From a virus, in the IMG/VR virus record IMGVR_UViG_3300044627_001153, positions 1 through 27,902 of that record: a stretch of DNA of 27,902 nucleotides; one strand, given 5' to 3'. Made by a program: the position numbers and the translations under genes. Positions 2,608 through 20,973 of the stretch are shown piece by piece. Position 1 is the first letter of the stretch. Each line of letters begins with the position of its first letter. The notes beneath the pieces were generated by a model. The model saw only the letters and a list, made by a program, of their open reading frames with translations. It had not been told where the DNA came from and searched no databases.

Positions 2608-3789
2608 ATGGCTTTCTTTGGTCTTTCCGATATAAAAATTTCTCCAGAAAATAATAAAGGACCGCTTTCTGCTCTTTTTGAAGGTGATATAACAAACACC
2701 TTCAGGTATCCAATGGATGTGGGTAACTATGATAAAGCCCACTACATGGTCATCCACATATTCCAACAGAAGAATACTCAGTTCACAGGTATTCAACAAG
2801 ACAAAGGTGGCGCACCAAGTGTAGCTAAAAATGAGGCAACTCCTGGTAGTGTGAGGGGATTGCCGAACATCAAAGAGAAATTTTCTAGCGCAATTAACAG
2901 TAAAATTGATAGTGCATTTTCTTCTGTAAATACAGCAGTGGGTGGAAAACTTTCTTTCTTTAAAGCATCCAAACCAGCATTCAGTTCAACTGAAGCTGCA
3001 AAGGCAACAAACGACAATAAACTGTATATTGATAAAGTTAGTGAAATTCAAAAATCCAGTTTCATAAACACAACAGTAAAAACTACAGATTCTATTGCAT
3101 TGTATATGCCAGATACTCTGCAATTTACATATTCGCAAGGATATGAAAACTTGGAAATGGGTAAAGAATTGGCAGGTCAAGCATTCCAAGTGGGTAAGGG
3201 TGCGATAGATAAAGTGAAAAGTGGTGAAGAAACTAATGTTACTGGTGCACTGAAGGCGGCTATTATTGCTGGTGCTGTTAAAGGATTGGGTGATGCGGCG
3301 GGTTCTTCTGCTACAGCTAAAGCTGGAACCTTTGCATTATTGGGTGGTGTGGTGAATCCAATGTTGGAAATGCTTTATTCCTCTCCAGATTTTCGTTCAT
3401 TTACATTTGAATTTCTTTTCTATCCACGTGATGAACGTGAAGCTTTAGAAGTACAGAACATTTTAGAAAGACTTCGTTTCCATCAAGCCCCCGAATTGGA
3501 TGATTCTTCCGGAGGTGTTCTTTTAATACCTCCTTCAGAATTTGAATTACAATTTTATTATGCAGGTAAACCAAACCCAAATATACCACCAATTGCACGT
3601 TGTGTATTAACAAACATTTCAATGGATTATGCACCAAATGGTTGGTCTTCCTATGAAATGCCGGGTGAGTATAGTCCTGCTTTAGGACGTACTGGTATGC
3701 CATCGGCAATCCGCTTGACATTAGAATTTAAAGAAACACAGTTCCTCACCAAGAAGGATTTTGGTAGGGCAACTAAAAGGATTCGGTAA
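2608..3789 (+). CDS. 48: Baseplate tail-tube cap gp48
   Basis: 393-aa protein of the T4 gp48 family (T4: about 364 aa), which caps the baseplate dome and is the platform for gp54 and the tail tube. The C-terminal half carries the recognisable core: 'FRSFTFEFLFYPRDEREAL' (about residues 264-282), 'PSEFELQFYYAG', then 'RCVLTNISMDYAPNGWSSYE' and 'AIRLTLEFKETQFLTKKDF'. Residues about 60-160 are Ser/Ala-rich and poorly conserved, as expected for gp48. A hydrophobic Ala/Gly segment around residues 210-250 resembles the gp48 middle region; I do not call it a membrane helix. The ATG at 2608 is supported by AGGAC upstream and the late-promoter core. It is first in the plus-strand run, and its stop overlaps the gp53 start (TAATG). 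Confidence 0.85.
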   Translation: MAFFGLSDIKISPENNKGPLSALFEGDITNTFRYPMDVGNYDKAHYMVIHIFQQKNTQFTGIQQDKGGAPSVAKNEATPGSVRGLPNIKEKFSSAINSKIDSAFSSVNTAVGGKLSFFKASKPAFSSTEAAKATNDNKLYIDKVSEIQKSSFINTTVKTTDSIALYMPDTLQFTYSQGYENLEMGKELAGQAFQVGKGAIDKVKSGEETNVTGALKAAIIAGAVKGLGDAAGSSATAKAGTFALLGGVVNPMLEMLYSSPDFRSFTFEFLFYPRDEREALEVQNILERLRFHQAPELDDSSGGVLLIPPSEFELQFYYAGKPNPNIPPIARCVLTNISMDYAPNGWSSYEMPGEYSPALGRTGMPSAIRLTLEFKETQFLTKKDFGRATKRIR

Positions 3790-4451
3790 TGGCAAAGTAT
3801 TTCAACTATTTCCCTACCACATATTATAGCAATTCAAATGAATCTACTGCGCTTGATACAGTAACGAATGTTATTGCTCGTTTTGCTTTTGAAAATTCAA
3901 TAAAAGATAATGCCTCACTCTTCTATCCTTATGATGTACAGGATGGTGAAACTCCTGAGATGATTGCAAACAAGTACTACGGTTCATCGGAAAAACATTG
4001 GATAGTCTTGCTATTCAATGACATCATCGATCCACAATACGATTGGCCATTAGATCAACGAACACTTATCAAGTATATTAACGACAAGTATTCTAAACAA
4101 GGTGCTACACATTCACCATTTCTAACGGGAATCCAATGGGCGCAAGATGCTGGTAACGTTAAGGCATACTATAAAACAGTGACTCGTTTAAGTTCTAAAC
4201 CAACCAACAATCAAATCGTCGAGAAGATTGAGATTGATGCTACAACTCATACAAACTTACCCGTAACAATTACCAGATATACACTTCAAGATGGTAGTAG
4301 GATTACTGAGACTATTTCTAAAACAACTCAAACATATTATGACTATGAAGTCGAGTTGAATGATGCTAAACGAAAAATACGTTTACTAAAATCTGATTAT
4401 GTAACCCAACAAGGTCTGATCAATGAATTCAAGAAAGTAATTAATTCATGA
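3789..4451 (+). CDS. 53: Baseplate wedge subunit gp53
   Basis: 220-aa protein matching T4 gp53 (about 196 aa), the wedge component that binds gp6 heterodimers and locks neighbouring wedges around the hub. The N-terminus 'MAKYFNYFPTTYY' and the LysM-like segment with 'DGETPEMIANKYYGSSEKHW' followed by 'IVLLFNDIIDPQYDWPL' (residues about 52-90) are characteristic. The last 90 residues are a charged, less conserved tail ending in 'RKIRLLKSDYV'. It overlaps gp48 by one base and the next gene by four (ATGA), so it is probably translated by coupling. In T4 gene 53 also lies just before gene 5; here a gp27-like gene is placed between them. Confidence 0.88.
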   Translation: MAKYFNYFPTTYYSNSNESTALDTVTNVIARFAFENSIKDNASLFYPYDVQDGETPEMIANKYYGSSEKHWIVLLFNDIIDPQYDWPLDQRTLIKYINDKYSKQGATHSPFLTGIQWAQDAGNVKAYYKTVTRLSSKPTNNQIVEKIEIDATTHTNLPVTITRYTLQDGSRITETISKTTQTYYDYEVELNDAKRKIRLLKSDYVTQQGLINEFKKVINS

Positions 4452-5791
4452 GTTCACAGCTTATGTCGGCATCGAAGTTTGTAGTAAATGAACTTTCTAT
4501 CATAACCAAGGCAGGTAAGATTGACATATCTTCAATATACGAAGAGATCAATATATTTGATTCCATTTTAATTCCGATTATGAATGGTAATGTACTGATC
4601 AATGATTCGGTTGGTCTGTCCTCTAAACTATTGTTCGATGGTTCTGAGTCTATATTGATTGATGTTGGTAAGACATCAGAATCCGATGTCTTGAAACTTA
4701 AAAAAGCATTTCGAATCTACAAACAATCTGACCGTAAGAACATCAATCAGACAAGTGAAATCTATGTACTTCATTTCGTTTCAGATGAAATGATGTTTTC
4801 AGACCAACAACTAATTAATCAAGCATACAAAACAACGTATTCTGATATTGTCAAAAAGATATTAGTTAATTATTTAAAAACACCTGACAATAAACTGAAT
4901 GGTAAGTTTGAAACTACCACTGGCATTCGTGATGTCGTTATACCAAATTTAAAACCTCTTGATGCAATTGAGTGGTGTGCCAAGCGTTCTATAGATGAAA
5001 ACCGTTCAGCTAACTTTGTATTCTTTGAAAACAATCTTGGATACAACTTTGCATCACTATCGTCACTCCTTTCACAGAAAGAATTGTTCACGATTAAGTT
5101 TTCACCCAAAAACTTAGAACAGACTAACGTAGTTGACGATTTGTTAAGTCCTCGTAATTTTGAAATCATTAATCAAGTTGATAAGATTAAATCAACTCGA
5201 TCAGGTGTTAATGCTGGTACGTTTATTGGATTTGATCCAGTTACTCGTTCTGTTGGTGTTAAAAAGATTAATTATGAAGATCATTATAATGCCATGAAGC
5301 ATGGCAATCCAAATCCCAATTACTTTTCTTCAATTAATCGCGGCGGTGACGATTCATCTCAAGCATTTGATTCAAGGAAGACTGTTAGTTCGTTTGGTGC
5401 GTTCCGTCGAGACAGTGCCTACATTAAAAAATACGATCCAACTTCTATTTCCAAACAGGAGACACAGGAAGATTTTATTTTTCAGCGTAAGGCAATCATA
5501 ACTAATCTGATGAACAAAAGAGTAAAGCTGGTTATGCCTGGTAATTTTCAATTGACTTCTGGTTTCAGTTTAAATCTTCGTACACCAGACTTTTCTATTC
5601 GTGAAACTGGCGGTGAGAATGATGATCGTTCATTGAGTGGGCGTTACTTGATTGTTGCTACTCGTCACATCATTGGTTATCAGAAACATGAAACTATAAT
5701 TGAATTGGCAACAAGTTCCAATGAACTACCGTTTATACCAACGGCAACAACTCAAGAAACAAAAGAAATAGAGAATTATGGAACAATCTGA
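4448..5791 (+). CDS. 27: gp27-like baseplate hub protein
   Basis: 447-aa protein that fits the T4 gp27 hub family (391 aa in T4). A gp27 trimer forms the torus holding the gp5 spike, and its two tube-like domains match the tail tube. Evidence is the segment 'PLDAIEWCAKRSIDENRSAN' followed by 'FVFFENNLGYNFASL' (residues about 172-205), a common hub motif of the form AI-W-A-R-N-FVFYE, and a C-terminal 'SGRYLIVATRHIIGYQKHET' block that resembles the last strand of hub domains. Position is also strong evidence: it overlaps the gp5-like gene by 14 nt and the gp53 gene by four. The residues after about 260 are specific to this lineage. The hub role is confident; sequence identity with T4 gp27 is probably low. 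Confidence 0.72.
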   Translation: MSSQLMSASKFVVNELSIITKAGKIDISSIYEEINIFDSILIPIMNGNVLINDSVGLSSKLLFDGSESILIDVGKTSESDVLKLKKAFRIYKQSDRKNINQTSEIYVLHFVSDEMMFSDQQLINQAYKTTYSDIVKKILVNYLKTPDNKLNGKFETTTGIRDVVIPNLKPLDAIEWCAKRSIDENRSANFVFFENNLGYNFASLSSLLSQKELFTIKFSPKNLEQTNVVDDLLSPRNFEIINQVDKIKSTRSGVNAGTFIGFDPVTRSVGVKKINYEDHYNAMKHGNPNPNYFSSINRGGDDSSQAFDSRKTVSSFGAFRRDSAYIKKYDPTSISKQETQEDFIFQRKAIITNLMNKRVKLVMPGNFQLTSGFSLNLRTPDFSIRETGGENDDRSLSGRYLIVATRHIIGYQKHETIIELATSSNELPFIPTATTQETKEIENYGTI

Positions 5792-6731
5792 AGACAGTAA
5801 AAACTTTGCTGGTAAAGGTGGTTTCATTTGGTTCATTGCGGTTGTTGAACGAATTAATGATCCGTTAAAACTTGGTCGGTGTCGTATACGATGTGTTGGT
5901 TGGCACACTGATAATAAACAGTTATTGCCTTCAGATTCTTTGCCTTGGGCGCAAGTTCTTTTACCGACAAACAATACAAACCCATATCCACCCCGTGAAG
6001 GAGATATGGTTGTTGGCTTTTTTACTGATGGTGAAAGTGGACAAGACCCCATAATTATGGGTGTTATGCCGGGTATCCCATTGGATGCAGCTAACCCACA
6101 AAAGGGATTTAGTGATCCACGGTCATCTTCTGAATTAGCAGCGGCACCTGTAAAGCCTGATGAGTCTGCCACAAACTATCCACGAAAGATAGATGAGCCG
6201 ACAACTTCACGTTTAGCACGAAATGATTCTGATTATCCGTCACCAATCTTAGCAGCAAAGAAATCCAAAAAAGCCAGTAAAGTGGAACCAGATTCTTACT
6301 ATGCTGCCAAATATCCGTACAACAATGTTTATGAATCTGAATCCGGACATGCATTAGAGTTTGATGATACTAAAGGAGCTGAACGAATTCACACTTATCA
6401 TCGTTCAGGTTCTTATGTTGAATATGGTCCACTAGGTGATCGTGCTGAAAGAATACAGCGTAACAAATTTACTGTAGTTGTTGGTGATGATTCTATTTAT
6501 GTTCAAGGTTCGGTGAAGATGTATGTTGATGGTGACTATGATCTGAACGTAACGGGTGATATTAGAATCAATGGTAAGACCGTCAACATTAATAAAGGAA
6601 CTATGGGTGCTGCTCGTATTGGTGATACTGCGGATACTGGCGATCAAGGTACAGGAAGCGATACTGATAATAATTCGGCAGGAACCAACGTAATTGAATC
6701 GGGTTCGGGTACAGTGTTCATCGGAGACTGA
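5778..6731 (+). CDS. 5: gp5-like baseplate spike protein lacking the lysozyme domain
   Basis: 317-aa central spike protein. Residues about 14-100 form the gp5 OB-fold, with 'FIWFIAVVERINDPLKLGRC' then 'PPREGDMVVGFFTDGESGQD' and PIIMGVMPG. A linker of about 70 residues rich in Pro, Ser, Asp and Lys follows, where T4 gp5 carries its lysozyme. Residues about 175-290 return to the spike-type beta-prism: 'SGHALEFDDTKGAERI', then short V-x-G-x repeats such as 'YVQGSVKMYVDGDYDLNVTG'. T4 gp5 is 575 aa; the missing length equals roughly the lysozyme plus part of the beta-helix. The product should pierce the outer membrane but not cut peptidoglycan. Its start overlaps the gp27-like gene and its last segment is Gly/Ser/Asp rich. 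Confidence 0.82.
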   Translation: MEQSEDSKNFAGKGGFIWFIAVVERINDPLKLGRCRIRCVGWHTDNKQLLPSDSLPWAQVLLPTNNTNPYPPREGDMVVGFFTDGESGQDPIIMGVMPGIPLDAANPQKGFSDPRSSSELAAAPVKPDESATNYPRKIDEPTTSRLARNDSDYPSPILAAKKSKKASKVEPDSYYAAKYPYNNVYESESGHALEFDDTKGAERIHTYHRSGSYVEYGPLGDRAERIQRNKFTVVVGDDSIYVQGSVKMYVDGDYDLNVTGDIRINGKTVNINKGTMGAARIGDTADTGDQGTGSDTDNNSAGTNVIESGSGTVFIGD

Positions 6732-6741: not shown

Positions 6742-7164
6742 ATGTCAACTACTATTACTTCAAATGATCCAACAATTGTAGCCGAAAGAGGTTACAAGGA
6801 TTTGGATTTAAATTTTACAGCACATCCTATTAAAAAGGATATTAGCAGACATTATAATGAAAAAGCGATAATCAACTCTGTTAAAAACTTGGTTTCCACC
6901 AATTTTTATGAGCGTCCATTTCGTCCAGAAATTGGTTCAGGTGTCAGAAGGATTTTGTTTGAATTGGTCGATTCAGTTTCCGGTGCGGCATTGGAAAGGC
7001 AGATTTCCGAAGCTATTAATAACTTTGAACCAAGAGTTAGTATAGAAACAGTTACTGCTATCCCTTCCCCAGATGAGAATGGATATAAAGTTACATTGTC
7101 CTTCTTTATTAATACATTGCCAAATCCAATAACGATTAACTTCTTTTTAGAGCGTATAAGATAA
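6742..7164 (+). CDS. 25: Baseplate wedge subunit gp25
   Basis: 140-aa protein of the gp25 family, the core wedge component conserved across phage tails and type VI secretion (TssE). The family EPR motif is present as 'NFEPRVSIE' (residues 94-102), preceded by 'RPEIGSGVRRILFELVD', which is the usual sheath-initiator surface. Length is typical (T4: 132 aa). gp25 binds gp6 and gp53 and seeds sheath polymerisation. The ATG follows an A-rich leader containing ATAAATA and no clear Shine-Dalgarno. It is separated by a single base from the gp6 start. Confidence is high because motif, size and neighbours agree. Confidence 0.92.
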   Translation: MSTTITSNDPTIVAERGYKDLDLNFTAHPIKKDISRHYNEKAIINSVKNLVSTNFYERPFRPEIGSGVRRILFELVDSVSGAALERQISEAINNFEPRVSIETVTAIPSPDENGYKVTLSFFINTLPNPITINFFLERIR

Positions 7165-7165
7165 A

Positions 7166-9223
7166 ATGACAGAACGTCTAAGAGTAACTGAACTTGATTT
7201 TGATCAGATCAAGCAGAATTTAAAAACTTATTTACAGAGGCAAACCGAGTTTACCGATTATGATTTTGAAGGTTCGGGACTGAGTGTACTGTTAGATATC
7301 CTTGCTTACAATACTCATTACAATGCTTACTATGTAAACATGATTGCCAATGAAGCATTCTTGGACACCGCATTGCTTCGTGACTCTGTTGTTTCTCATG
7401 CCAAAGTTCTTGGGTATGTTCCTTATTCCCGTAAATCACCACGGGCAAATATTAATTTCACAGTAGCATCAACCTCAAATACAACAGCTACTGTAACAAT
7501 TCCTAAAGGTTTCCGTTTTCTATCCAATGAGATTGATGGTATTAGCTACGGTTTTGTAACTCTTGCCGAGACAACTGTAACAAAATCAAATACAAGTTTT
7601 GACTTTTTAAACTTACCAATCCATGAGGGGCAATTAGTTACCTATTCTTATTCTTACGATCAGGCGACTAACCCTAAACAAGTCTTTGCAGTTCCCGATG
7701 AAGGTGTGGATACGTCAACGATTACGGTATCTGTTCAACCTTCAGCAACAAATACTGCATCTGAAGTTTATACTCTTGCTTCAGATGCCACAGAAGCAAC
7801 TACGACTTCTCCAGTATTTTATTTACAAGAAAACAAGAGTCAGAAATACGATCTTTATTTTGGTGATGATGTCATCGGTAAAAAGATTACTGATGGTTCT
7901 ATTGTATCAATTAGCTATTTAATAACAAATGGTACTGCTGCAAATAAAGCAAATAATTTTGTTGCAACTGCAACTCTTGCAGATTCATTGGGTAACAGTC
8001 TTACTAATTTCACGATTGATCCTGTTGGTGAAGCGGCAGGTGGCGCAGAACGCGAATCTGTTGATGAGATTAAGTTCTCTGCCCCACTTCAGTTTACTAC
8101 ACAGAATCGTTTGGTCACGTATAAAGATTACGAATCATTCATCAAGAAAAATTATCCGTCTGTAGATTCAGTATCAGTATGGGGTGGTGAGGATGAGACT
8201 CCCCCAACATATGGTCGAGTGTTCGTTGCTTTAAAACCAAAACAAAATTATTACCTTTCTGACACGGAAAAACAAAGAATCATTGACGAAGTAATTGCTC
8301 CAAAAGCAGTTGTTGCGGTACAAACAATCATTCGTGATCCAGAATTTTTGTATCTATTGATTTCACCTACTGTGACCTATGATCCAAAGAAAACTATTCT
8401 TACCACAGATCAATTAAAAACTAGCATTCGTAATGCTATATTGTCCTATAAGACAACGTATCTTGATAAGTTTGACTCTAAGTTCATTCTTTCCAAAGTT
8501 CAAGATGCTGTAGATGCAACTGATTCAAATTCAATTATTGGATCAAAAGTTTCTGTTCGTGTGCAAAAAAGATTCAAGCCAATAACATCACAGGCTAAAC
8601 CTTACTTTATTTACTTCAATGTTCCACTTCGTCGTGGGACAATCAGCAATAAATTATCATCAACGTTCTTTACAGTAGTTGACGCTGATGGTGTAGATCA
8701 AGTTGTCCAATTTGATGAGATACCTCAATCATTTTCCGGTGTGTCTGGAATCAGTGTTTTGAATGCGGGACAAAATTATACTAGCACACCAACAATTACA
8801 ATTACAGGTGATGGTACAGGTGCAAATGCTGCGGCGACTATTGTAAATGGTAGAGTTCAAAGCATAGAAGTTACTAATCGTGGTATCGATTACACCCGTG
8901 CCACTATATCTATTTCTGGTGGTGGTGGATTTGGTGCTACCGCAGAAGCAGTTATTGATGCTCGTACAGGTGAACTAAGAACGGTTTACTATGATTCAAA
9001 TGCACAACGTCAAATTGTAGACGGAACTGCTGGCACGATTGATTATGATGCGGGTATAGTCACAATTAATAACATCTACATAAAATCAGTTTTATCGACA
9101 GATGGTTACATTCGTTTATCCGTCGAATCGGAAAAAGGTATTATCAGCACAACTAAAAATACCATTGTTACATTAGATGTAGATGACCCAACTGCAATTA
9201 GCACAACACTAGAAACTGTATAA
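7166..9223 (+). CDS. 6: Baseplate wedge subunit gp6 with an inserted GSGY-type module
   Basis: 685-aa baseplate J-like wedge protein; T4 gp6 is 660 aa. The N-terminal 'LDFDQIKQNLKTYLQRQTEF', 'GSGLSVLLDILAYNTHYNAY' and NEAFLDTALLRDSVVSHAK are classic gp6 motifs. The middle contains 'GGAERESVDEIKFSAPLQFT' followed by 'QNRLVTYKDYESFI', the baseplate J core that dimerises around the hub. Residues about 530-608 are an inserted module: 'AGQNYTSTPTITITGDGTGA' then 'VTNRGIDYTRATISISGG'. This type of module is also found in the gp7-like, gp8 and DUF4815 proteins here. The C-terminal part after about 610 returns to gp6-like sequence. It ends in TAATG overlapping the next gene. Confidence 0.9.
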   Translation: MTERLRVTELDFDQIKQNLKTYLQRQTEFTDYDFEGSGLSVLLDILAYNTHYNAYYVNMIANEAFLDTALLRDSVVSHAKVLGYVPYSRKSPRANINFTVASTSNTTATVTIPKGFRFLSNEIDGISYGFVTLAETTVTKSNTSFDFLNLPIHEGQLVTYSYSYDQATNPKQVFAVPDEGVDTSTITVSVQPSATNTASEVYTLASDATEATTTSPVFYLQENKSQKYDLYFGDDVIGKKITDGSIVSISYLITNGTAANKANNFVATATLADSLGNSLTNFTIDPVGEAAGGAERESVDEIKFSAPLQFTTQNRLVTYKDYESFIKKNYPSVDSVSVWGGEDETPPTYGRVFVALKPKQNYYLSDTEKQRIIDEVIAPKAVVAVQTIIRDPEFLYLLISPTVTYDPKKTILTTDQLKTSIRNAILSYKTTYLDKFDSKFILSKVQDAVDATDSNSIIGSKVSVRVQKRFKPITSQAKPYFIYFNVPLRRGTISNKLSSTFFTVVDADGVDQVVQFDEIPQSFSGVSGISVLNAGQNYTSTPTITITGDGTGANAAATIVNGRVQSIEVTNRGIDYTRATISISGGGGFGATAEAVIDARTGELRTVYYDSNAQRQIVDGTAGTIDYDAGIVTINNIYIKSVLSTDGYIRLSVESEKGIISTTKNTIVTLDVDDPTAISTTLETV

Positions 9224-11433
9224 TGTCATTAGATTTAAAAACATCATTACTTGTTAATCGTCAAGTTCCTGAATTTGTTAGGGATGAGTATCCTACATTT
9301 GTCACATTCCTAGAGGCATATTATCAGTTTCTTGAAGGAACTGCTAACACAGGAACAACAGCAAATAATCTTGTCACGACTGCTAAAAGTCTTCGTGATA
9401 TCCGTGATGTTGATTCCTCGTTGGAAGAATTCCAAACAAATTTTTATAATACATATGCTTCACTGATACCGCTTGACGTTCAATCCAATAAACAACTTTT
9501 ATTCAAACATCTTGTACCTTTATATAAAACAAAAGGTAGTGATGCATCATTCAAGTTATTATTTCGCCTTATCTTTGGTGTAGATATTGATGTTGTTTTA
9601 CCTAAAAATAATGTTTTAAAAGCATCCAGCAGCAAATGGCAGATTGATAATAAACTTCGTATCAATCAAGATATTGCTTCAATATATTCTGGTGATGGAA
9701 CAACTAAGACATTTACACTTGCTCAAATCGTTGGAGCAGATGAGATAAGTGTCTTTGTAAACGATGTTCTCCAAAGTAATTTCTTTGTCAATAAAGAATA
9801 TCGTAAAATAAATTTCAATTCAGCACCCGCAAATAATTCTACTATTCGTATTGTCTATGATAGTTTTGATACTAATCTACTAAACAATCGTAAAGTAACT
9901 GGTCTTAAATCTGGCGCATCTGCGGTTATTGAACAAGCAAATCGTCGTATTATTTCCGATACATTTAATCTAGGTCTGCCAGTTGAGTTGCTTATCAACA
10001 CCAATTCGTTGGATGGCAGTTTCCTGAATGGTGAATATGTAACTATACCAATTATTAATCCAGATGAACCATACGGTAACACGATCAACATTGAAGCGTC
10101 AACGTTTTCGATTGTTAAAAAGTTTAATGTAATTGATGGTGGTTTCAATTATCAGGTAGGTGATCCTGTTATTGTTACTGGTGGTAATGCCGCAGTAAAT
10201 GCGATAGGTACAGTTTCATCTATTTTCCAAGGTTTGATTGAAACGGTTGCGGTATCAAGAGGGGGAGCAACATTTGCTAATTTATCTCCGGTTATTGTAT
10301 CAGGTAATGGTGGAGTTACATTAACGATTACCGTTGATGGCATCGATCAATCGGGTGTAAATGCGGCAAACAGTTTCATTGTTGTTAGTGATGTTATTGC
10401 TACATTTAACGGAAATACCAATTCAGTTAATACGATAATCAGTTCAGCAAACTATGAGTTTGCCAATTCCAGTACAGTCACAAGTCCAAACTTAAACACA
10501 CGAATCGTTGATGTTTTAGGTTTCCAAACATTATCAGTTGGACCAATCACAAACGTTAAGGTTCTATTGACATCTGGTGCTACACCAACAACTCCAACAC
10601 TTGATGCGTTTGGTGCGCCATATGGTTTACTTGGAGCACTTCGTTCACCAAAAAGTTTAAGATCAGTTGGGCGTATCAAAGTTAATAACTCTGGTTCTGG
10701 ATATGTTGTTGGTGATGAAGTTGTGTTTAATGTTAATCCTCCCGGCACATATGGTCAAGCCGCTGCTGCTACTGTGGAAGCAGTCAGTGCAACTGGTGCT
10801 GTTATTACTGTCGGGATGGCAAACACTCGTATAGTTGGCACTGCAACTGTTACTGGATCATCATCATCGGTTGGTGGAAGTGGAACACAATTCTTAACTG
10901 ATCTTCGTGTTGGTGATAAGATTGATATCAACAACGAATCAAGAATTGTATCAACTATTTCTGACGATACAACGTTATCTGTTACTTCACCGTTTACATA
11001 CTCAGCTTCAGGCAAAAAGATTGGTGTATTTGGTCGTAATCCAAAAGGTGGTCACAGCTATACACAGAATAATTTCCCATCTGTAACAATATCTTCCGTT
11101 GGCGGTGTTGGAGCAAATATTCAAATTGATTCCCTTGTATCTGATGGTGAATCATTACTTGCTTCTGGTACCGGACAGCCAGGAGAGATTCTTACTATTC
11201 AAGTGTTGAATCCTGGTTCTGGTTACGAATATATTCCTATTATAACTATCACTGGTGGTTCTGGAACAGCAACTGCAAATGCTGATATTGAACGTTCTTA
11301 CCTTTCATCACCTGGTCGTTGGATAACATCTGATTCTATTATATCGTCAACCGAAAGAAAACTTGCTGGTCAAGATTACTATGTTGATTATTCATATGTT
11401 ATAAGACTTACTGCATCCAGTTGGTTTTGTTAA
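9223..11433 (+). CDS. 7: gp7-position baseplate wedge protein, N-terminal part (frame ends early)
   Basis: 736-aa reading frame in the gene-7 position between gp6 and gp8. The opening 'LLVNRQVPEFVRDEYPTFVT' then 'FLEAYYQFLE', and 'LFKHLVPLYKTKGSDASFKL' then 'LFRLIFGVDIDV', are typical of the large virion protein found there in environmental T4-like phages. Later regions carry beta-modules: 'VIDGGFNYQVGDPVIVTGG' near residue 300, 'NNSGSGYVVGDEVVF' near 484, and 'VLNPGSGYEYIPIITITGG' near 657. A 'GTQFLTDLRVGDKI' type domain lies around 560. The frame ends abruptly after 'DYSYVIR' with a short nonsense tail LTASSWFC. The expected continuation 'LLHPVGFVNYAEFN' is present in the +1 frame from 11405, so this and the next ORF look like one gene. 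Equivalence to T4 gp7 (1032 aa) is by position, not clear sequence match. Confidence 0.72.
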   Translation: MSLDLKTSLLVNRQVPEFVRDEYPTFVTFLEAYYQFLEGTANTGTTANNLVTTAKSLRDIRDVDSSLEEFQTNFYNTYASLIPLDVQSNKQLLFKHLVPLYKTKGSDASFKLLFRLIFGVDIDVVLPKNNVLKASSSKWQIDNKLRINQDIASIYSGDGTTKTFTLAQIVGADEISVFVNDVLQSNFFVNKEYRKINFNSAPANNSTIRIVYDSFDTNLLNNRKVTGLKSGASAVIEQANRRIISDTFNLGLPVELLINTNSLDGSFLNGEYVTIPIINPDEPYGNTINIEASTFSIVKKFNVIDGGFNYQVGDPVIVTGGNAAVNAIGTVSSIFQGLIETVAVSRGGATFANLSPVIVSGNGGVTLTITVDGIDQSGVNAANSFIVVSDVIATFNGNTNSVNTIISSANYEFANSSTVTSPNLNTRIVDVLGFQTLSVGPITNVKVLLTSGATPTTPTLDAFGAPYGLLGALRSPKSLRSVGRIKVNNSGSGYVVGDEVVFNVNPPGTYGQAAAATVEAVSATGAVITVGMANTRIVGTATVTGSSSSVGGSGTQFLTDLRVGDKIDINNESRIVSTISDDTTLSVTSPFTYSASGKKIGVFGRNPKGGHSYTQNNFPSVTISSVGGVGANIQIDSLVSDGESLLASGTGQPGEILTIQVLNPGSGYEYIPIITITGGSGTATANADIERSYLSSPGRWITSDSIISSTERKLAGQDYYVDYSYVIRLTASSWFC
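11405..11433 (+). other. Frame-change zone in the gp7-like gene
   Basis: The upstream frame stops at 11431-11433. The downstream frame is blocked by a stop at 11402-11404 and is open from 11405. In the overlap, the downstream frame reads DLLHPVGFVNYAEFN, a sequence that belongs directly after the SYVIR end of the upstream frame. In proteins of this type I recall about a dozen extra residues between these two blocks, so a small deletion fits better than a single-base error. That comparison is from memory. Confidence 0.7.
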
Positions 11434-11467
11434 TTATGCTGAGTTTAATAAATCAAACACAATTGAG

Positions 11468-13243
11468 TTGACGGATGTAAGTGTATCTACAATCAATGTT
11501 GCTACTGATCCACAATTCTTGACAGTTGCTGGTACCGTAAACGTTGGTAACGGTAGAATTACTGTTACTGGCACGAATACCAAATTCAATCTTGCAACTT
11601 CACGGGGTGCATTCACCACTGGTTCCAGAGTGGCTGTAAATGGGGAAATACGTACAGTTAATTCTGTCGTAAGCAATACCTCATTATTGGTATCATCAAA
11701 TGTCAATAGTATTCTAATTGCCAACTCAGGTTCTGGTTATTCAAATGGTTTCTTAGTCTTTGCAAATGGTGGTGGACGAATAACAAGTTTGTCTATTACC
11801 AACACTGGTTCAGGATACGAAAGTGGCAATGTTGTATTATCTGGTGCCGATGAAGCAATTCCTGCTGTTGCGACTGTGGTTGCGAATGCAACAGGACACT
11901 TACAAAGCGTTACGTTGGTTAGTGGTGGTTTGTATTCTGGTGTGCCTATTGCATTGCCAGCAAGTGAACCTCATAAAGTCCTATACGCAAATACAATTAC
12001 TGTTACTAATCGGGGTGCAGGTTACTCTAATGGATTCCTAAACTTCACTGGTGGTGCTCCAGAACGAGCAGCAAATGTTTCAGTGGAAGTATATGAATCG
12101 AATGGTGCAATCAGATTACTTACCGTTAATGATTCTGGATTATATGAAAGCAATCCAACTTCAGCATCACCAGATTCAAGTGCAAATGTTGTAGTGTCAA
12201 ATGTGTTCTCTTCCATCTTAAATGTCGGTGGCGCACACTCAAACGGTATAATTATATTCTCTGGTGGTGGCACAGCGAACCGTTCAGCACAAGTTGCAGT
12301 TGAGGTTTACTCATCGAATGGTGCAGTCCGTAGATACACAATTCTCGACTCTGGACTATACACAACCACACCTACTGCTGTATTAAATACCAGCCCAAAG
12401 TCTGTTGCTTCTATTAATGCAAATACAGTTACATATAACGGTGTTGCATTAGCAAATGGAAATCTTGTGTTTACTGGTGGTGGTGCTGTTACTGATGCAG
12501 CAGGAACATATGAAGTCTATGAGGCAAATGGAGTTATACGTAGCATCACAATTACTAATGTTGGTCTGTATCGTTCCACGCCAAATGTAACTACGAATGT
12601 TGTTCCGACTTCCATTACTGAAGTCTTTGCTACGGATGGCGGTTCTGGATATGCCAATGGTTACATTATATTTACTGGCGGTGGTGCCAACTCAGTTGCC
12701 AATGTTTCGGCAGTAGTAAATGGCACTGGAGCGATTGTTCGAACCATCATAAATAATGTAGGATTGTATGCAAATGGTAACAGTATTGGAGTCTTGAGTG
12801 TTATAAATCCTGCTACAGGATCAGCACAGAGTCCAACGATACCTGCGACATTCCGTATTTCTTACAATGCAAATACAAGCAATATTGCAAATCTGATTGT
12901 TACCACATCTGCTAACGCATTCTATACAGCAAATGTAACAGTTACCGCAAATAGTAACTCAGTAACGAATGCATCATTTACGATGTCTGGTGTTTCGAAC
13001 ACCGAGACGGTGGCAGTAATTGCAGTTGGATTTACCGGAACAAATACAGCAGCGCAGAGTTCAATAGAAGTGTATCCATCAAACGGAGCAATTCGTAGTA
13101 TTAGTATCAGTTCGCAGGGTGAGTATTTCTATGCTCCTGATGTTACACCAAACACAGGTGGCACTGGAGCAGTTCTAAGAGTTAATAGTGTAGGAACATT
13201 TAGCCAGACCGCAAATGGTCAGGAAATGATTATATGGAAATAA
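11468..13243 (+). CDS. gp7-like protein, C-terminal part with tandem beta-repeats (out of frame)
   Basis: The frame is open from 11405. The first possible start is a TTG at 11468, with no Shine-Dalgarno, so independent translation is doubtful. It is probably the C-terminal continuation of the preceding gp7-like gene. After 'HPVGFVNYAEFNKSNTIELT' comes a 'GTVNVGNGRITVTGTNTKF' domain like one in the upstream part. Then roughly six degenerate repeats of about 70 residues follow, with units such as 'VEVYESNGAIRLLTV', 'VEVYSSNGAVRRYTI', 'YEVYEANGVIRSITI' and 'IEVYPSNGAIRSISI', each preceded by a '(G)YSNGFLxFxGG' strand. It ends 'GQEMIIWK'. There are no membrane or catalytic features. The composition (Asn, Thr, Val, Gly, Ala) suits an extended beta-structure on the baseplate surface. 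Confidence 0.65.
   Translation: MTDVSVSTINVATDPQFLTVAGTVNVGNGRITVTGTNTKFNLATSRGAFTTGSRVAVNGEIRTVNSVVSNTSLLVSSNVNSILIANSGSGYSNGFLVFANGGGRITSLSITNTGSGYESGNVVLSGADEAIPAVATVVANATGHLQSVTLVSGGLYSGVPIALPASEPHKVLYANTITVTNRGAGYSNGFLNFTGGAPERAANVSVEVYESNGAIRLLTVNDSGLYESNPTSASPDSSANVVVSNVFSSILNVGGAHSNGIIIFSGGGTANRSAQVAVEVYSSNGAVRRYTILDSGLYTTTPTAVLNTSPKSVASINANTVTYNGVALANGNLVFTGGGAVTDAAGTYEVYEANGVIRSITITNVGLYRSTPNVTTNVVPTSITEVFATDGGSGYANGYIIFTGGGANSVANVSAVVNGTGAIVRTIINNVGLYANGNSIGVLSVINPATGSAQSPTIPATFRISYNANTSNIANLIVTTSANAFYTANVTVTANSNSVTNASFTMSGVSNTETVAVIAVGFTGTNTAAQSSIEVYPSNGAIRSISISSQGEYFYAPDVTPNTGGTGAVLRVNSVGTFSQTANGQEMIIWK
11860..13130 (+). repeat. Degenerate ~70-codon tandem repeats within the gp7-like C-terminal part
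   Basis: Equivalent positions of the 'VEVYxSNGAIR' strand fall at 12083, 12299 and 12509, with weaker matches near 11870, 12710 and 13064. This gives steps of 216, 210, about 201 and 354 nt. DNA identity between copies is low, so the repeat is seen mainly at protein level. Confidence 0.6.
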
Positions 13244-13259: not shown

Positions 13260-14816
13260 ATGACTTCAGCAACCTCTAAAAAAATAGCATACATAGCGGC
13301 ATCACAGTTCAAGGAATCGTTCTACGAACCATCACCGACTGTGGGTTATGTGTTTCTGGGTAATCATTTACCTTACGCCGATGAGAATACTCCATCAGCC
13401 ATTATAGATTCCATTTCTGATGAAAAGAGTTCTTGGGACAATATGATTGGTGCCAAGAAAATTACTGGTAATGATGTTGAGTTTGTTATTCCAAGAGTGG
13501 GTTGGACAGCAAATACCAAATACAAACAATACGATGATGTTGTTTCTTTCGATGAATTATTGACAGGCAATACTTCGTTGAATGTAAAGCCCATGTACAT
13601 AACGACTTCGGGTAGAAATGTTTATAAGTGTTTGTCGAACAATGCTTCTGCAAATTCTACAGTAGAACCAACTGGAGATTATACATCATCAAATGGTAAT
13701 ATTGCTACATCCGATGGCTACATTTGGAAGTATATGTTCAATGTAAAACCATCAAACAAATTCCTTACAAATACATGGATTCCAACACCAACTTCTACAG
13801 CACAGATTGACTATGGTGTTAATGTGATTGGTGTGATTGATGGTGAATTGTCTACCATTGTTGTTACGAATTCTGGTTCAGGTTACTATGAAAATAACGT
13901 ATCCGCTACTTTATCATTTGCAACTGGTTGCTCAATTCTAACTCTTGCAAACACCACAAACGTTGCTGCAAATATGACAGTAACAGGAACAGGTATTACA
14001 CCAGGAACTTACATTTCTTCGGTTGACGTTCCAAATAATAAAATCACATTGTCCACATCCACAACTGCTGCTGGTGGTGGAAACACAAGTGCTAATCAAT
14101 TATCGTTGACAACTAGAGTTTATGTTGATGGTGATGGTACAAGTGTTGCCGCAACACCAGTTGTAAATGCGGCAGGTTACGTAACCAAGGTCACAGTATC
14201 AACGATTGGAATTGGATACTCACGTGCCAATGCTTTTGTTTATGGTACAGGTAGCAGTGCTACTCTTCGGTGTATCCTTGACCCGAAATATGGACATGCT
14301 TACAATCCAGCAAAAGAATTAGGTGCCAACAATATAATGGTTTCAGTAAAGATTGGTGAAATTGATTCTTCTGAAAACGGAAAGATATCTGCCAATACAA
14401 CATTCAGACAGTACGGCATCTTTGTAGACCCCCATAAATACGCAGATGCTAATGTAGTAACACAAGCAAATGCAAATTCAGTAGTGGCATTGACTACGGA
14501 CATTTCAGTTGATACTGGCGTTGCGTATACTTTAGATGAGTTTGTTTATCAAGGAACATCTCCAGCAACAGCATCAGCATATGGATTCATTGTTGATCAA
14601 AGTTCTAATGTAATTAAATTGACGAATGTAAAAGGTTCATTCTCAACAGGTTCTTCATTAGTTGGAGCAACTTCAGGTACAAGTCGTTTGATCATTGGTT
14701 CAGGAACACCAGAGTTTCAACCATATTCGGGTGACATTCTTTATACAGAAAATGCAGTCAAGACCACTAGAGCAGATGGTCAAGCAGAAAACATCAGACT
14801 TATTGTTAGATTTTAA
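13260..14816 (+). CDS. 8: Baseplate wedge subunit gp8 with insertions
   Basis: 518-aa protein of the gp8 family (T4: 334 aa), which dimerises in the wedge and links gp7 and gp10. Diagnostic features are 'SKKIAYIAASQFKESFYEP', then 'SSWDNMIGAKKITGNDVEFV' followed by 'IPRVGWTANTKYKQYDD', and 'VYKCLSNNASANSTVEPTG' with 'GYIWKYMFNVKP'. The excess length comes from GSGY-type segments: 'TNSGSGYYENNVSATLSF' (residues about 201-218) and 'VSTIGIGYSRANAFVYG' (about 313-329), flanking an 'MTVTGTGITPGTYISSVD' stretch. The C-terminus 'PYSGDILYTENAVKTTRADG' followed by 'QAENIRLIVRF' is typical of gp8. The start follows an AATAAATACAAGTT leader. Confidence 0.86.
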   Translation: MTSATSKKIAYIAASQFKESFYEPSPTVGYVFLGNHLPYADENTPSAIIDSISDEKSSWDNMIGAKKITGNDVEFVIPRVGWTANTKYKQYDDVVSFDELLTGNTSLNVKPMYITTSGRNVYKCLSNNASANSTVEPTGDYTSSNGNIATSDGYIWKYMFNVKPSNKFLTNTWIPTPTSTAQIDYGVNVIGVIDGELSTIVVTNSGSGYYENNVSATLSFATGCSILTLANTTNVAANMTVTGTGITPGTYISSVDVPNNKITLSTSTTAAGGGNTSANQLSLTTRVYVDGDGTSVAATPVVNAAGYVTKVTVSTIGIGYSRANAFVYGTGSSATLRCILDPKYGHAYNPAKELGANNIMVSVKIGEIDSSENGKISANTTFRQYGIFVDPHKYADANVVTQANANSVVALTTDISVDTGVAYTLDEFVYQGTSPATASAYGFIVDQSSNVIKLTNVKGSFSTGSSLVGATSGTSRLIIGSGTPEFQPYSGDILYTENAVKTTRADGQAENIRLIVRF

Positions 14817-14826
14817 AGGTTAATAA

Positions 14827-17800
14827 ATGGCACTAAACACAAATTTTAATGTTGAACCATATTATGATGACTTCGATGAAGATAAAAACTTTCATCGTAT
14901 TCTGTATAAACCAGGATACGCTGTTCAGTCCCGTGAATTAACTCAATCTCAAACAATTCTACAAGACCAAATTAAAAAGTTTGGTGATCATGTATTTAAG
15001 TCTGGTTCAATTGTAACTGGTGGTCAAATCTTTGTACAGAATACTGCATACATTAATCTCACATCAACATATGCTGGCAATGATATTACTGCATCCAATT
15101 TTGATAAAGAGTATATTACAAACACAACAGGTACAAAAAAAGCGTATGTTCTAAGAGCATATTCTGCGGATACCACTGCTGGCGAACCAATCACATTGAT
15201 TGTAAATCAGATGTATGGTAATAACTTCACTTCCAGTGAAACTATTATTACAGCAAATACCGACAATGGTGCGATTAATTATTATGCTAATACCGCTGCC
15301 AGTAATCCAACAGGCAATTCAAAAACATTCTCTATTAATGAGGGTGTGTTCTATTATGAAGGTTACTTTGTCAAGAATCAAGCACAGTCTATTGCAATTT
15401 CAAAATACGATAATGCGAATGCTGCTGGTCTAATTGGTTTTGAAGTGGGTGAAAGTATCATCGATTACACTGAAGATACTTCTTTACTTGATCCTGCACA
15501 GTCTGCATCCAATTTCCAAGCACCTGGCGCTGATCGTTACAAGATTTCTTTAACTCTAGCAAATCGTTCTTTAGATAGCACAGACCTTTCTCAGTTTATT
15601 GAGTTGAGTCAGTTCGATCAAGGTATACAGCAAAAAGTTATTCAAACACCAATCTATTCAACTATTGGTGATGAACTTGCTCGTCGCACATATGACGAAT
15701 CTGGAGACTATATTGTTAGCCAATTTGATATTGCAGTGACAGATAGTTCAGCAAATAATGCAAAAGCAAACGTAACTCTAGCACCAGGTAAAGCATATGT
15801 TCGTGGCTATGAGTATCAAACAATTGCTCCAACAACATTGGTTATTGATAAACCAAGAACTACAGATAACGTAAACAACCAACGTATTAGTGCTGACTAT
15901 GGTTACTATGTTTATGCAAACAGTCTGTTTGGAACATTACCTACAAACTTAGTTGGTAATGTTGAACTGTATGTTGTTGATGCTGGTGTTCTAACTAGCG
16001 TACAAGCAAATACTTCCAATTTGAATAATGTACGAATTGGTTCTGCTAAAATTAAATTACTTTCTTATGATTCAAGTTCAAATTCAGAATCATCGAATAC
16101 TTACATCTATAAAACATTCCTGACGGATATTAATACTCGTAGTATTTTTAACACTGCAACTGGTAACGGCTATAATGCACTTGCTGGTTCAACAACAACA
16201 ATCAATTTACCTTCAGGATTTTCAGCAAACAGTGATGTTTATGTTGGTGCTAGAGTTCGTATTGTTGCTGGACCTGGTACGGTTGATGGTCCACGTACAG
16301 TAAAAACTTATACAGTATCAGGGGGTACTGGTACCGAAACAACTCGTATTATTACAGTAGATAAACCATATTCAAATGTAATCACAACTGCTTCCCAATT
16401 CATACTCGATTTTGATTTTGGTCAAACAGATTCAATTGCCGTTATGACAAGTGCTGGAACAATTCGTTCAGCCTCTGCAAACATTCATCCTTATTCTAAA
16501 CGTCAAGTTACAATATCTTCGGGTGTTGTCCATTATCCTGCTTACATAACAGATGTTGGCTCTGAACCTCTACTGTTACAAGTAGGTGAAAATAATGTTG
16601 CTGATAATACAATTGCAGATTTCAGTTACCAATATCGTCGTTTATATCAATCTGTAGGTTCATTCTCAAGCGGTGTGTCACCTGCTCTCTCATTGGGAAC
16701 TGGCGAATCTTTGGTGTCTGCATCTTCAACATCATCTAAGTTACAGAACTATACCGTAATTGTAACTTCAAAAGGTTCTGGTATTTACGATGTGGGCACA
16801 GTTGTTCCTGCTCATGTAATGTCGATTGATACTGCATCACGTAAGATTACCGTAACTGATGGTGGCACTATGTCTGCCAACATCTATGCAACTATTAGTG
16901 CATCGAATCCTACATCAAAAACAAAAACATTTATTCGTGCAAATACTGTGCTGGTTGATCCTGCTGGTGGTGGTACAAATAGTGTGTTTGGTGCTGGCAA
17001 TACTTCGGTTTACGTTTCATCTCTGGATGGTCAAACAGCAATTACTGCTAACTCCATGTTAGTAACAACGCCTGGAGTTGATCAATATCTGTTTGCTTCC
17101 GATGTTCATTCTATCAATGCTATCTTTGATTTTAATGGCCAAACAATCAGCACAGCAAATTATAATGCATTAGATAAGTCTGCCACATCATCAGCAAATA
17201 TTACCACTCGGTATACTTTGGTAGATGGTCAAAAAGATTCCTATTATGATTGGGCATCTATTCGTCTAAAACCTGGTTATCCTGCTCCAAAAGGACCGTT
17301 GTTGATTCGTTACAATCGTTTCAAATCAACTGGTACTGGTTACTTTGATGTGGATTCGTATACACGTTTAGGTCCAAACAATTTTGCATATGCAGATATA
17401 CCGACATTTACATCACAAGATGGATTCATTTATTCATTAAATGATTATTTGGATTTCCGTCCTGTTCGCAAAGATGCAACCGAAGCATATTCAGCAAATA
17501 ACTTTGTGTTTGATGTTGAAGAAGCGGGTGCTGGTCCTAAAATTGTTGAAGTTGGAACTGATGTTGTTCTTGATTATAGTTTTTATTTGCCACGTATAGA
17601 CCGTTTAATTTTAAATAAAACTGGTTCATTCGAAGTTATTGCTGGCGTTCCATCATTGAATCCTTCGGCACCTGCCGAACCATCGGAGTCGATGACTTTA
17701 TACACTCTGTCATATCCAGCGTATTTGGGTTTTGCTTCATCGACAGGAATAAAAACTTTCAAAAACAAACGTTACACAATGAAAGACATTGGTAGTCTTG

Positions 17801-20800
17801 AGAGTCGTATTCAGAATCTTGAATACTACACATCTCTATCATTGATGGAACAAGCAACTCTGAGCAAACAAGACTTATCAACACTCGACTCAACTGGACT
17901 GCCACGATTCAAAAATGGTATGATGGTAGATACTTTTGTTGATAAAACGGTAGCAAACTTTATTGCAAATGATTTCTCTGCCGCTATTGATATTGTTGGT
18001 AACTTAGCACGAAATTCTTATAACCTAACATCGGTAAAAGTGTTTTCTAATAATAGTGTATCAGATTCTGGTATTGAGTATAATGGTCCTCTGCTAACAT
18101 TATCTGGTACCGATGAAGTTTATCTGTCACAAAATCTTGCTTCAAAATCAGTAAACATTAATCCATTTAACGTTATCAATTATATTGCTAGTGTTAAACT
18201 TGATCCTGTGTCAGATGTGTGGACTTCAGACACAAGAGTGGAAGCACAGAATATTGACTTAACGGGTGGTGATGCTGCACGTGATGCTTGGTCATCTATC
18301 CAAAGCACATCATGGGGCGCATGGCAAACAACATGGACTGGTACAGATATACTAGAAACTATTGGACCAGTAAAAACTACAACGACAAAATCTGCTAGAC
18401 ATTCTGTTGTAAATCCAAAAAATGGTAGATTGATGCGTGAAATCACTACGACTAAAACTCAAGATGCTTTGGTAAGTCGTACTACAAATGAATCTCGTCA
18501 AGGTATTCTTTCACAGATTGTACCACAACAATTAACTAAATCTCTTGGTGACCGTTTGATTGATGTTTCAGTTGTACAATTTATGCGTGATACTAATATT
18601 CTTGCTATTGGTACTGGATTCAAACCAAGAACAACTTTGTTCACATATTTTGATAATACAAATGTTGATCAGTACATCTATCGTGCCAATCTTCTTGAGT
18701 TTGCCAATAACAATCTAACGTATGATACAACGATTGGTGATCCGGAACTTATTGCATTTTATGATGCTGCTACTAATGAACTGATGGGTGACGGTGGCAT
18801 AGTTCTAACTGCTAACAATCATGCATTCATTACCAATATTGTTCCTCGTTCTGCTTACGGAACATGGGCAAATGCTGCAACTGGTATTAGAGTTGTCGGT
18901 GGTGCATCTGGTGCAACAAATCTTACAACAACTTGGTATCACTATTCAGGTAAAGCACTTGCTGGTTCTGCTGGCGTAGGTGCAGGTGGACCAACAATTC
19001 AACTTGCTTTCAACGCAGGTGGTGCAACTGAAACTGGTGATTATGTTGGTCAAACTATTCGTATTATTGCTGGTACTGGCGCAGGTCAATCCAGAGTAAT
19101 CAATGCATATAGTTCATCATCACGTACAGCAAACGTTTCTACGAATTGGACAACAGTACCAGACTCAACATCAACATACTCAATCGGTACATTAACATCT
19201 ACAATTGAGGGTGCAACTGCTGGAGTCTTTGCTGCACCTACAGATACATTCCGTGTTGGTGAAAAGTTACTTCGTATTATTGATGACCCAAATGGAACTA
19301 TTGAACGTTCAACAACAAGAGGTGAGACATCATTCTTCTCTCAAGGACTGATTCAAACAAAACAAGAAACATCAATTTCTGTATTTGTTCCGAATGTTGT
19401 TCGAAGCACTGTTACTGAAGATCGTACAACAACATCAACTTCTCGTCAAAGTGTTGTTGTTGGACAAAAAGTTAAGTATGATGATCCTCTTGCACAAACA
19501 TTCTTGGTAAACGGTGATATCTATCCGCAAGGTTTAATGATATCCAGTGTTCGTGTTTGTTTCAAAACTAAGGATGTATCTGCTCCAGTAACATTACAAC
19601 TTCGTTCTGTGGTAAATGGTTATCCATCAACTACAGTTTATCCTTATGCTGACGTTTCACTGACACCGGATAAGATAAAAATAAGTACATTACCAAGTTT
19701 GACAGACTCAACAAAATACACAGAATTCCATTTTGATGTTCCTGTATTCTTGTTACCTGGTGAACATTCGATTGTTCTTCTTTCGAACAGTAATGGATAT
19801 GAAACGTTTGTTGCGGAGATTGGTCAAACAAATCTTGCATCGTCTGCCAAGATTTCAGAACAACCATATACTGGTTCATTGTTCTTATCGCAGAACGGTT
19901 CAACTTGGACTGCTGATCAAACTTCAGACTTGATGTTCAGTTTGTATAAGAAAGCATATTCAATTACAACTCCAGGATATTCTTATTTTGAAGTTGATAT
20001 GTCTCAACAATCTGCAAATTCATTATACGACTTAATGCATGTAATGTCAACAGATGTTGTGCTGGCAAATACGGCAATTGATTATCAATTCATATCTGAA
20101 AATACCACAGGAACAACACATCCGTTTATTAGTTTTGTTCCGAACATTGACTACTCAATGGTAGATGGATATGGTCGCCGTGCATTGAATACCACAACTG
20201 GTAATACTACATTTACCTTACGAACAGTTCTATCGACATCTAATCGTGATATCACTCCGATGATTGATAGGAATCGTTTGAACTTGCTGGCAATTGAAAA
20301 TAAGATTAATAACTTATCTTTACAGACTAGCGATATCGTAATTACCAATCCAGGTACAACCTACACTTCAGCATCGGTTTCTATTACTGGCGGCGGCGGT
20401 AGTGGTGCGGCAGCATCAGCAACCGTTGCGGGTGGACAAGTTATTGGAATTACAATTACAAGTTTTGGTTCTGGATATGTAACATCACCAACAATTACAA
20501 TCACAGGTGATGGTTCCGGTGCTACTGCAATCTATAACGGTGAAGATAAGAAATCTGGTGGTAATGCTAAAGCACGTTACATTACTCGTAAAGTTCAACT
20601 GTCTGATGGTTTCGACTCGGGTGACTTGCGTGTGTATCTAACAGGTTACAAACCACCACAATCTGACATTTATGTTTATGCGAAGTATTTGTCATCGTCT
20701 GATCCACAATCTTTTGAAGATAAGAACTGGATTCAACTGACACAGATCAACGCAAATAATTTTGTCTCGGCAGATGAAACAGATTATCGTGAGTTGACTT

Positions 20801-20973
20801 ATGCACCAGGTGTCGATGGAGTTGAAGCAAATCGAATAAATTATACTTCAGGAAATGACAACTACACATCATTTATTACCTTTGCGATTAAGGTAGTTCT
20901 TGCTGGTCAAAGCACTGTTGACGTTCCTAAGATTAAAGATTTGCGAATAATTGCTTTGCCTGATGCGACATAA
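14827..20973 (+). CDS. Giant DUF4815-type virion structural protein
   Basis: 2048-aa protein. The N-terminus 'PYYDDFDEDKNFHRILYKPG' then 'AVQSRELTQSQTILQDQI' and 'FGDHVFKSGSIVTGGQIF' is the hallmark of the DUF4815 structural proteins that follow gp8 in environmental T4-like phages. 'GDELARRTYDESGDYIVSQF' (near residue 287) is a second family motif. A later part has 'YDDPLAQTFLVNGDIYPQGL' (near residue 1549) and 'VFLLPGEHSIVLLSNSNGYE', an adhesin/beta-sandwich-like block. Residues about 1837-1906 contain two GSGY-type units, followed by 'ARYITRKVQLSDGFDSGDLR'. It probably takes the place of outer baseplate proteins such as gp9/gp10, since no separate homologues are seen here; that is inference. 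The start sits in TTAATAAATG and the end overlaps the next gene (TAATG). Confidence 0.82.
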   Translation: MALNTNFNVEPYYDDFDEDKNFHRILYKPGYAVQSRELTQSQTILQDQIKKFGDHVFKSGSIVTGGQIFVQNTAYINLTSTYAGNDITASNFDKEYITNTTGTKKAYVLRAYSADTTAGEPITLIVNQMYGNNFTSSETIITANTDNGAINYYANTAASNPTGNSKTFSINEGVFYYEGYFVKNQAQSIAISKYDNANAAGLIGFEVGESIIDYTEDTSLLDPAQSASNFQAPGADRYKISLTLANRSLDSTDLSQFIELSQFDQGIQQKVIQTPIYSTIGDELARRTYDESGDYIVSQFDIAVTDSSANNAKANVTLAPGKAYVRGYEYQTIAPTTLVIDKPRTTDNVNNQRISADYGYYVYANSLFGTLPTNLVGNVELYVVDAGVLTSVQANTSNLNNVRIGSAKIKLLSYDSSSNSESSNTYIYKTFLTDINTRSIFNTATGNGYNALAGSTTTINLPSGFSANSDVYVGARVRIVAGPGTVDGPRTVKTYTVSGGTGTETTRIITVDKPYSNVITTASQFILDFDFGQTDSIAVMTSAGTIRSASANIHPYSKRQVTISSGVVHYPAYITDVGSEPLLLQVGENNVADNTIADFSYQYRRLYQSVGSFSSGVSPALSLGTGESLVSASSTSSKLQNYTVIVTSKGSGIYDVGTVVPAHVMSIDTASRKITVTDGGTMSANIYATISASNPTSKTKTFIRANTVLVDPAGGGTNSVFGAGNTSVYVSSLDGQTAITANSMLVTTPGVDQYLFASDVHSINAIFDFNGQTISTANYNALDKSATSSANITTRYTLVDGQKDSYYDWASIRLKPGYPAPKGPLLIRYNRFKSTGTGYFDVDSYTRLGPNNFAYADIPTFTSQDGFIYSLNDYLDFRPVRKDATEAYSANNFVFDVEEAGAGPKIVEVGTDVVLDYSFYLPRIDRLILNKTGSFEVIAGVPSLNPSAPAEPSESMTLYTLSYPAYLGFASSTGIKTFKNKRYTMKDIGSLESRIQNLEYYTSLSLMEQATLSKQDLSTLDSTGLPRFKNGMMVDTFVDKTVANFIANDFSAAIDIVGNLARNSYNLTSVKVFSNNSVSDSGIEYNGPLLTLSGTDEVYLSQNLASKSVNINPFNVINYIASVKLDPVSDVWTSDTRVEAQNIDLTGGDAARDAWSSIQSTSWGAWQTTWTGTDILETIGPVKTTTTKSARHSVVNPKNGRLMREITTTKTQDALVSRTTNESRQGILSQIVPQQLTKSLGDRLIDVSVVQFMRDTNILAIGTGFKPRTTLFTYFDNTNVDQYIYRANLLEFANNNLTYDTTIGDPELIAFYDAATNELMGDGGIVLTANNHAFITNIVPRSAYGTWANAATGIRVVGGASGATNLTTTWYHYSGKALAGSAGVGAGGPTIQLAFNAGGATETGDYVGQTIRIIAGTGAGQSRVINAYSSSSRTANVSTNWTTVPDSTSTYSIGTLTSTIEGATAGVFAAPTDTFRVGEKLLRIIDDPNGTIERSTTRGETSFFSQGLIQTKQETSISVFVPNVVRSTVTEDRTTTSTSRQSVVVGQKVKYDDPLAQTFLVNGDIYPQGLMISSVRVCFKTKDVSAPVTLQLRSVVNGYPSTTVYPYADVSLTPDKIKISTLPSLTDSTKYTEFHFDVPVFLLPGEHSIVLLSNSNGYETFVAEIGQTNLASSAKISEQPYTGSLFLSQNGSTWTADQTSDLMFSLYKKAYSITTPGYSYFEVDMSQQSANSLYDLMHVMSTDVVLANTAIDYQFISENTTGTTHPFISFVPNIDYSMVDGYGRRALNTTTGNTTFTLRTVLSTSNRDITPMIDRNRLNLLAIENKINNLSLQTSDIVITNPGTTYTSASVSITGGGGSGAAASATVAGGQVIGITITSFGSGYVTSPTITITGDGSGATAIYNGEDKKSGGNAKARYITRKVQLSDGFDSGDLRVYLTGYKPPQSDIYVYAKYLSSSDPQSFEDKNWIQLTQINANNFVSADETDYRELTYAPGVDGVEANRINYTSGNDNYTSFITFAIKVVLAGQSTVDVPKIKDLRIIALPDAT

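Follow-up and report, generated by a model that had tools for sequence, protein, structure and literature searches.

Known cases in which one protein is encoded in two separated frames include T4 gene 60, in which the extra segment is an insertion skipped by the ribosome, and the +1 frameshift of prfB. The T4 baseplate wedge protein gp7 (PDB 5hx2/5iv5) has 1,032 aa. Assembly of the T4 wedge is strictly ordered and halts at a missing member (PMC3004832). Here, we analyzed an IMG/VR virus record of 27.9 kb (in full 27,902 nucleotides; the whole stretch is referred to as the window), which carries a T4-like baseplate cluster consisting of a gp25-like gene, a gp6-like gene, a broken gene, and a gp8-like gene.

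Results

In the window, the baseplate genes and the break were located as follows.

6742-7164: gp25-like gene, a neighbor identified by PHROGs and Pfam
7166-9223, + strand: gp6-like baseplate wedge gene, upstream neighbor (phrog_219, E = 2.9e-163; PF21379 Gp6-like_1st, E = 1.4e-22)
9223-11433, + strand: 5' part of the gp7-like wedge gene, one ORF of 736 aa (phrog_17744, E = 4.4e-35; PF23786, E = 6.5e-10)
11402-11406, + strand: deletion junction at which 41 nt of the relatives are absent (alignment to relatives)
11405-13243, + strand: 3' part of the gp7-like gene, a repeat-rich stretch of 612 codons read in the +1 frame and terminating in QTANGQEMIIWK
11468-13243, + strand: ORF called mechanically from the earliest possible start (TTG) of the downstream frame, with no sign of a separate gene
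13260-14816, + strand: gp8-like baseplate wedge gene, downstream neighbor (phrog_438, E = 6.5e-76; PF09215 Phage-Gp8, E = 6.8e-9)

The original prediction had described a 736-aa frame that ends after DYSYVIR with a nonsense tail and continues in the +1 frame from position 11405, and its coordinates proved correct. Codons 1 to 727 of the ORF (9223-11433) are homologous to the relatives, and its last 9 codons (11404-11430) form an out-of-frame tail; the terminus reads ...QDYYVDYSYVI and then RLTASSWFC, followed by the stop. The +1 frame begins at 11405 with DLLHPVGFVNYAEFN (DLLHPVGF...) and remains open for 612 codons through 13243. Both halves aligned residue for residue, far above chance, to one continuous ORF of the relatives. 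Since the +1 frame has a TAA at 11402-11404, immediately before its resumption, and frame 0 is closed at 11431, the overlap of the two frames is confined to 11405-11430. The earliest ATG, GTG, or TTG of the downstream frame is the TTG at 11468, and no Shine-Dalgarno sequence precedes this frame. Both features had been pointed out before, but the missing Shine-Dalgarno sequence is uninformative, because none precedes the starts of the gp7-like gene (9223) and the gp8-like gene (13260) either.

The gene lies between the gp6 and gp8 genes of a T4-like baseplate cluster, with gp25-, gp6-, and gp8-like neighbors recognized by PHROGs and Pfam. The family profile matched T4 gp7 weakly (E = 0.001), with its N-terminal residues 25 to 122 aligned to gp7 residues 663 to 758, over only ∼100 residues. 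PF23786 (Baseplate_wedge, Pfam) covers the first 40 residues, and the intact relatives matched phrog_17744 (baseplate wedge) and phrog_26741 at the N terminus and the DYSY...HPVGF domain. An AlphaFold model of a short relative (L023) had a mean pLDDT of 53, too poor for fold comparison; it contains a helix at residues 726 to 739, where the deletion falls, predicted with low confidence. Synteny and the weak N-terminal match thus agree with the earlier assignment, and gp7-like appears to be a fair name, which rests on the position between gp6 and gp8 and the weak T4 gp7 profile match and not on whole-chain homology.

Relatives were collected by two IMG/VR scans, one per gene half, which yielded 49 loci; 38 distinct contigs span the site, some of them nearly identical to one another. 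Comparing the gene between gp6 and gp8 in relatives had been proposed as a check, and in all 38 distinct spanning contigs a single ORF, never a split one, was present between the gp6-like and gp8-like genes, with exactly 14 codons (42 nt) at the site, counted between the equivalents of Ile-727 and of the Asp in DLLHPVGF. When ten virus records were rechecked for the segment, it was present in every one (10/10), with no internal stop. The six closest full-length copies compared are one ORF of 1,340 to 1,356 codons, in line with the earlier reading, in which a small deletion or an assembly error has disrupted one gene of ∼1,340 codons. L002 (contig 3300021962_001047) is the nearest relative, with protein identities of 93% and 96% for the two halves, and its 14 codons read SSQVEFYRYKQILK. 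The window retains 1 of these 42 nt, so that 41 nt are missing, within the range of ∼30 to 45 nt that had been anticipated, and in an alignment with L002 starting at the window's start codon this gap was the sole indel across the 4-kb gene. The lost segment includes six positions that do not vary among 20 aligned relatives (S724, S725, F729, Y732, K733, and L736 in L023 numbering). The missing segment was not found elsewhere in the window. Searches of viral contigs and prokaryote genome contigs, from which near-identical records may have been withheld, revealed neither the same junction in another contig nor another contig from the same population. With a single ORF in the relatives and the 41 nt absent from this contig alone, the site shows the pattern of a frame-breaking deletion or assembly fault that is private to one sequence, with the other copies intact.

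These comparisons also bear on recoding. A programmed +1 ribosomal frameshift, for example at the TTTT at ∼11425-11428, would join both frames, which do overlap over 11405-11430, with a TTT-T run just ahead of the frame-0 stop. However, no relative has two frames, all being read through without a shift; the 14 conserved codons would remain absent from a shifted product, and a short T run is common by chance. We therefore consider a frameshift in this contig extremely improbable. As a conserved mechanism, it was rejected on account of the single continuous frame in 38/38 distinct contigs, and the original prediction, which had ranked it lower, gains no support for it. A bypass of the gene 60 type was likewise rejected, since the window lacks 41 nt rather than carrying an extra untranslated segment. 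A recoding mechanism is not needed to explain the two frames, and nothing specific was found in the literature on a gp7 frameshift or on broken genes in assemblies.

To compare selection on the two parts of the gene, dN/dS between the window and L002 was determined, giving 0.058 upstream and 0.046 downstream of the break. Changes on the window branch were polarized with three outgroups; in the downstream part, 10 were nonsynonymous and 44 synonymous, versus a neutral expectation of ∼70:28. The downstream coding sequence thus appears to be still under strong purifying selection. The split between the window and L002 corresponds to a dS of about 0.5 to 0.7. Because neither dN/dS nor the branch counts indicated drift downstream, the break should be recent relative to the L002 split, or not real; judged from these substitution patterns, it would be either very recent or artificial.

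An intact downstream frame under purifying selection could also be expected if the gene were functionally split into two proteins, the second made from the TTG at 11468 by reinitiation, and Shine-Dalgarno sequences are often absent from genes in this phage. Yet an intact ancestor accounts for the purifying selection, no relative is split at the site, and the cut falls inside a conserved domain, not between domains, and removes invariant residues. Such a split is in our judgment very improbable. We assign the same low probability to the broader proposal of a gp7 that works in this strain despite the loss of 14 conserved residues, either as two separate polypeptides or with the two joined by a +1 slip.

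The deletion was placed at 11403/11404, with 1 nt of ambiguity, and as judged from L002 the missing segment is not bordered by direct repeats. Neither repeat slippage nor a k-mer misjoin was therefore visible. Repeat-mediated deletion was rejected, there being no direct repeat at the ends (judged from L002) and the repeats of the 3' part not lying at the junction. Identity to L002 was about equal on both flanks (94 to 98% when 50-nt windows between 11303 and 11502 were compared), and a strain chimera at the junction was rejected because this identity is unchanged across it. An assembler misjoin normally requires a k-mer shared at the join. By comparison with L002, no such k-mer is present (1 nt only), which speaks for a real or a chimeric molecule; the junction would be compatible either with a chimeric read at low depth or with a real but rare deletion.

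Length differences among the relatives were concentrated in one part of the protein. The whole gp7-like protein comprises 844 to 1,872 aa (844 to 850 aa in most members of one clade), with first residues that are similar among relatives and a last dozen residues that are similar in many. Extra beta-rich repeats follow the HPVGF domain and precede a C-terminal tail, QTANxQxxII, that is often similar (window 11405-13243; L023, L002, L046, and L048). Given this variation after the HPVGF domain and the similar ends, the repeat-rich third is read as a variable extension. By eye, short GSGY...P.ITITGG modules are common to the gp6-, gp7-, and gp8-like proteins and to a 2,048-aa protein (14827-20973), and phrog_460 matched both the gp6-like and gp7-like proteins.

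Further observations were made elsewhere in the window. Positions 5393-6532 are 92% identical to one relative (L043) without gaps, but identity is only 77% after 6731; another (L007) showed 89% identity over 3402-6580 and 77% after 6699. On these identities, there looks to be a recombination boundary near 6550-6700. Two very glycine-rich proteins are encoded downstream of the baseplate genes, at 23037-24092 (351 aa) and 24450-27743 (1,097 aa), the latter with about four similar repeats as judged by eye; both are probably tail-fiber or adhesin-like.

Discussion

The locus very probably represents a single gp7-like baseplate wedge gene of ∼1,353 codons (9223-13243) whose frame is broken by a 41-nt deletion at 11403/11404 that is private to this contig and would have arisen as an artefact or as a very recent inactivating mutation, without recoding. 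Taken as written, the sequence would yield a 736-aa product without the end of the conserved domain and without the entire repeat-rich C-terminal part, most likely a nonfunctional wedge protein. The predicted loss of the repeat-rich C-terminal third holds for the sequence as written, but this third varies greatly in length among relatives, and the conserved domain is also partly removed.

Two subcases of the single-gene reading are opposed to each other. In one, the deletion is real and recent in the sampled population, and the deleted genomes persist as a minority or by complementation, or are a dead end. The junction, with neither a repeat nor a strain switch to explain an assembly misjoin, speaks for a real deletion, as does the fact that a contig consensus is normally supported by reads. 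Against it, selection downstream is not relaxed, the junction was absent from every other contig searched, and loss of an essential wedge protein should block virion production, as far as can be inferred from T4 (PMC3004832). We regard a real deletion as possible, at somewhat below even probability. By analogy with the ordered wedge assembly of T4 (PMC3004832), a lasting gp7 knockout would be unlikely in a lytic phage, as would a dominant genome without gp7, which favors the other subcase; the deletion is thus somewhat more likely to be a library or assembly artefact than a recent inactivating mutation in the sampled phage.

The break is an ordinary one-off event, possibly an artefact, and does not represent a novel genetic mechanism. 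Its main relevance is to annotation, in which neither a split gp7 nor a case of recoding should be attributed to this contig. A by-product of modest interest, with regard to the evolution of proteins at the baseplate periphery, is the range of 844 to 1,872 aa among gp7-like proteins in this clade, reached through a repeat-rich extension that follows a fixed domain.

Compared with known systems, the gene resembles T4 gp7 in its position between the gp6 and gp8 genes and in the profile match to residues 663 to 758. In contrast to the 1,032-aa T4 protein, the relatives studied here range from 844 to 1,872 aa, and beyond the ∼100 matched residues they consist of beta-rich modules of variable number. 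With the families phrog_17744 and phrog_26741 and PF23786, the likeness is that the core is matched at both ends by the PHROGs and in the first 40 residues by Pfam; the close intact relatives differ from the two PHROGs by a long repeat insertion after the DYSY...HPVGF domain, and the window copy is broken within that domain. With the T4 gene 60 bypass and the prfB +1 frameshift, the locus shares, only in a formal sense, the possibility that one protein is encoded in two separate frames, whereas the window has missing DNA, in an arrangement that occurs in no relative.
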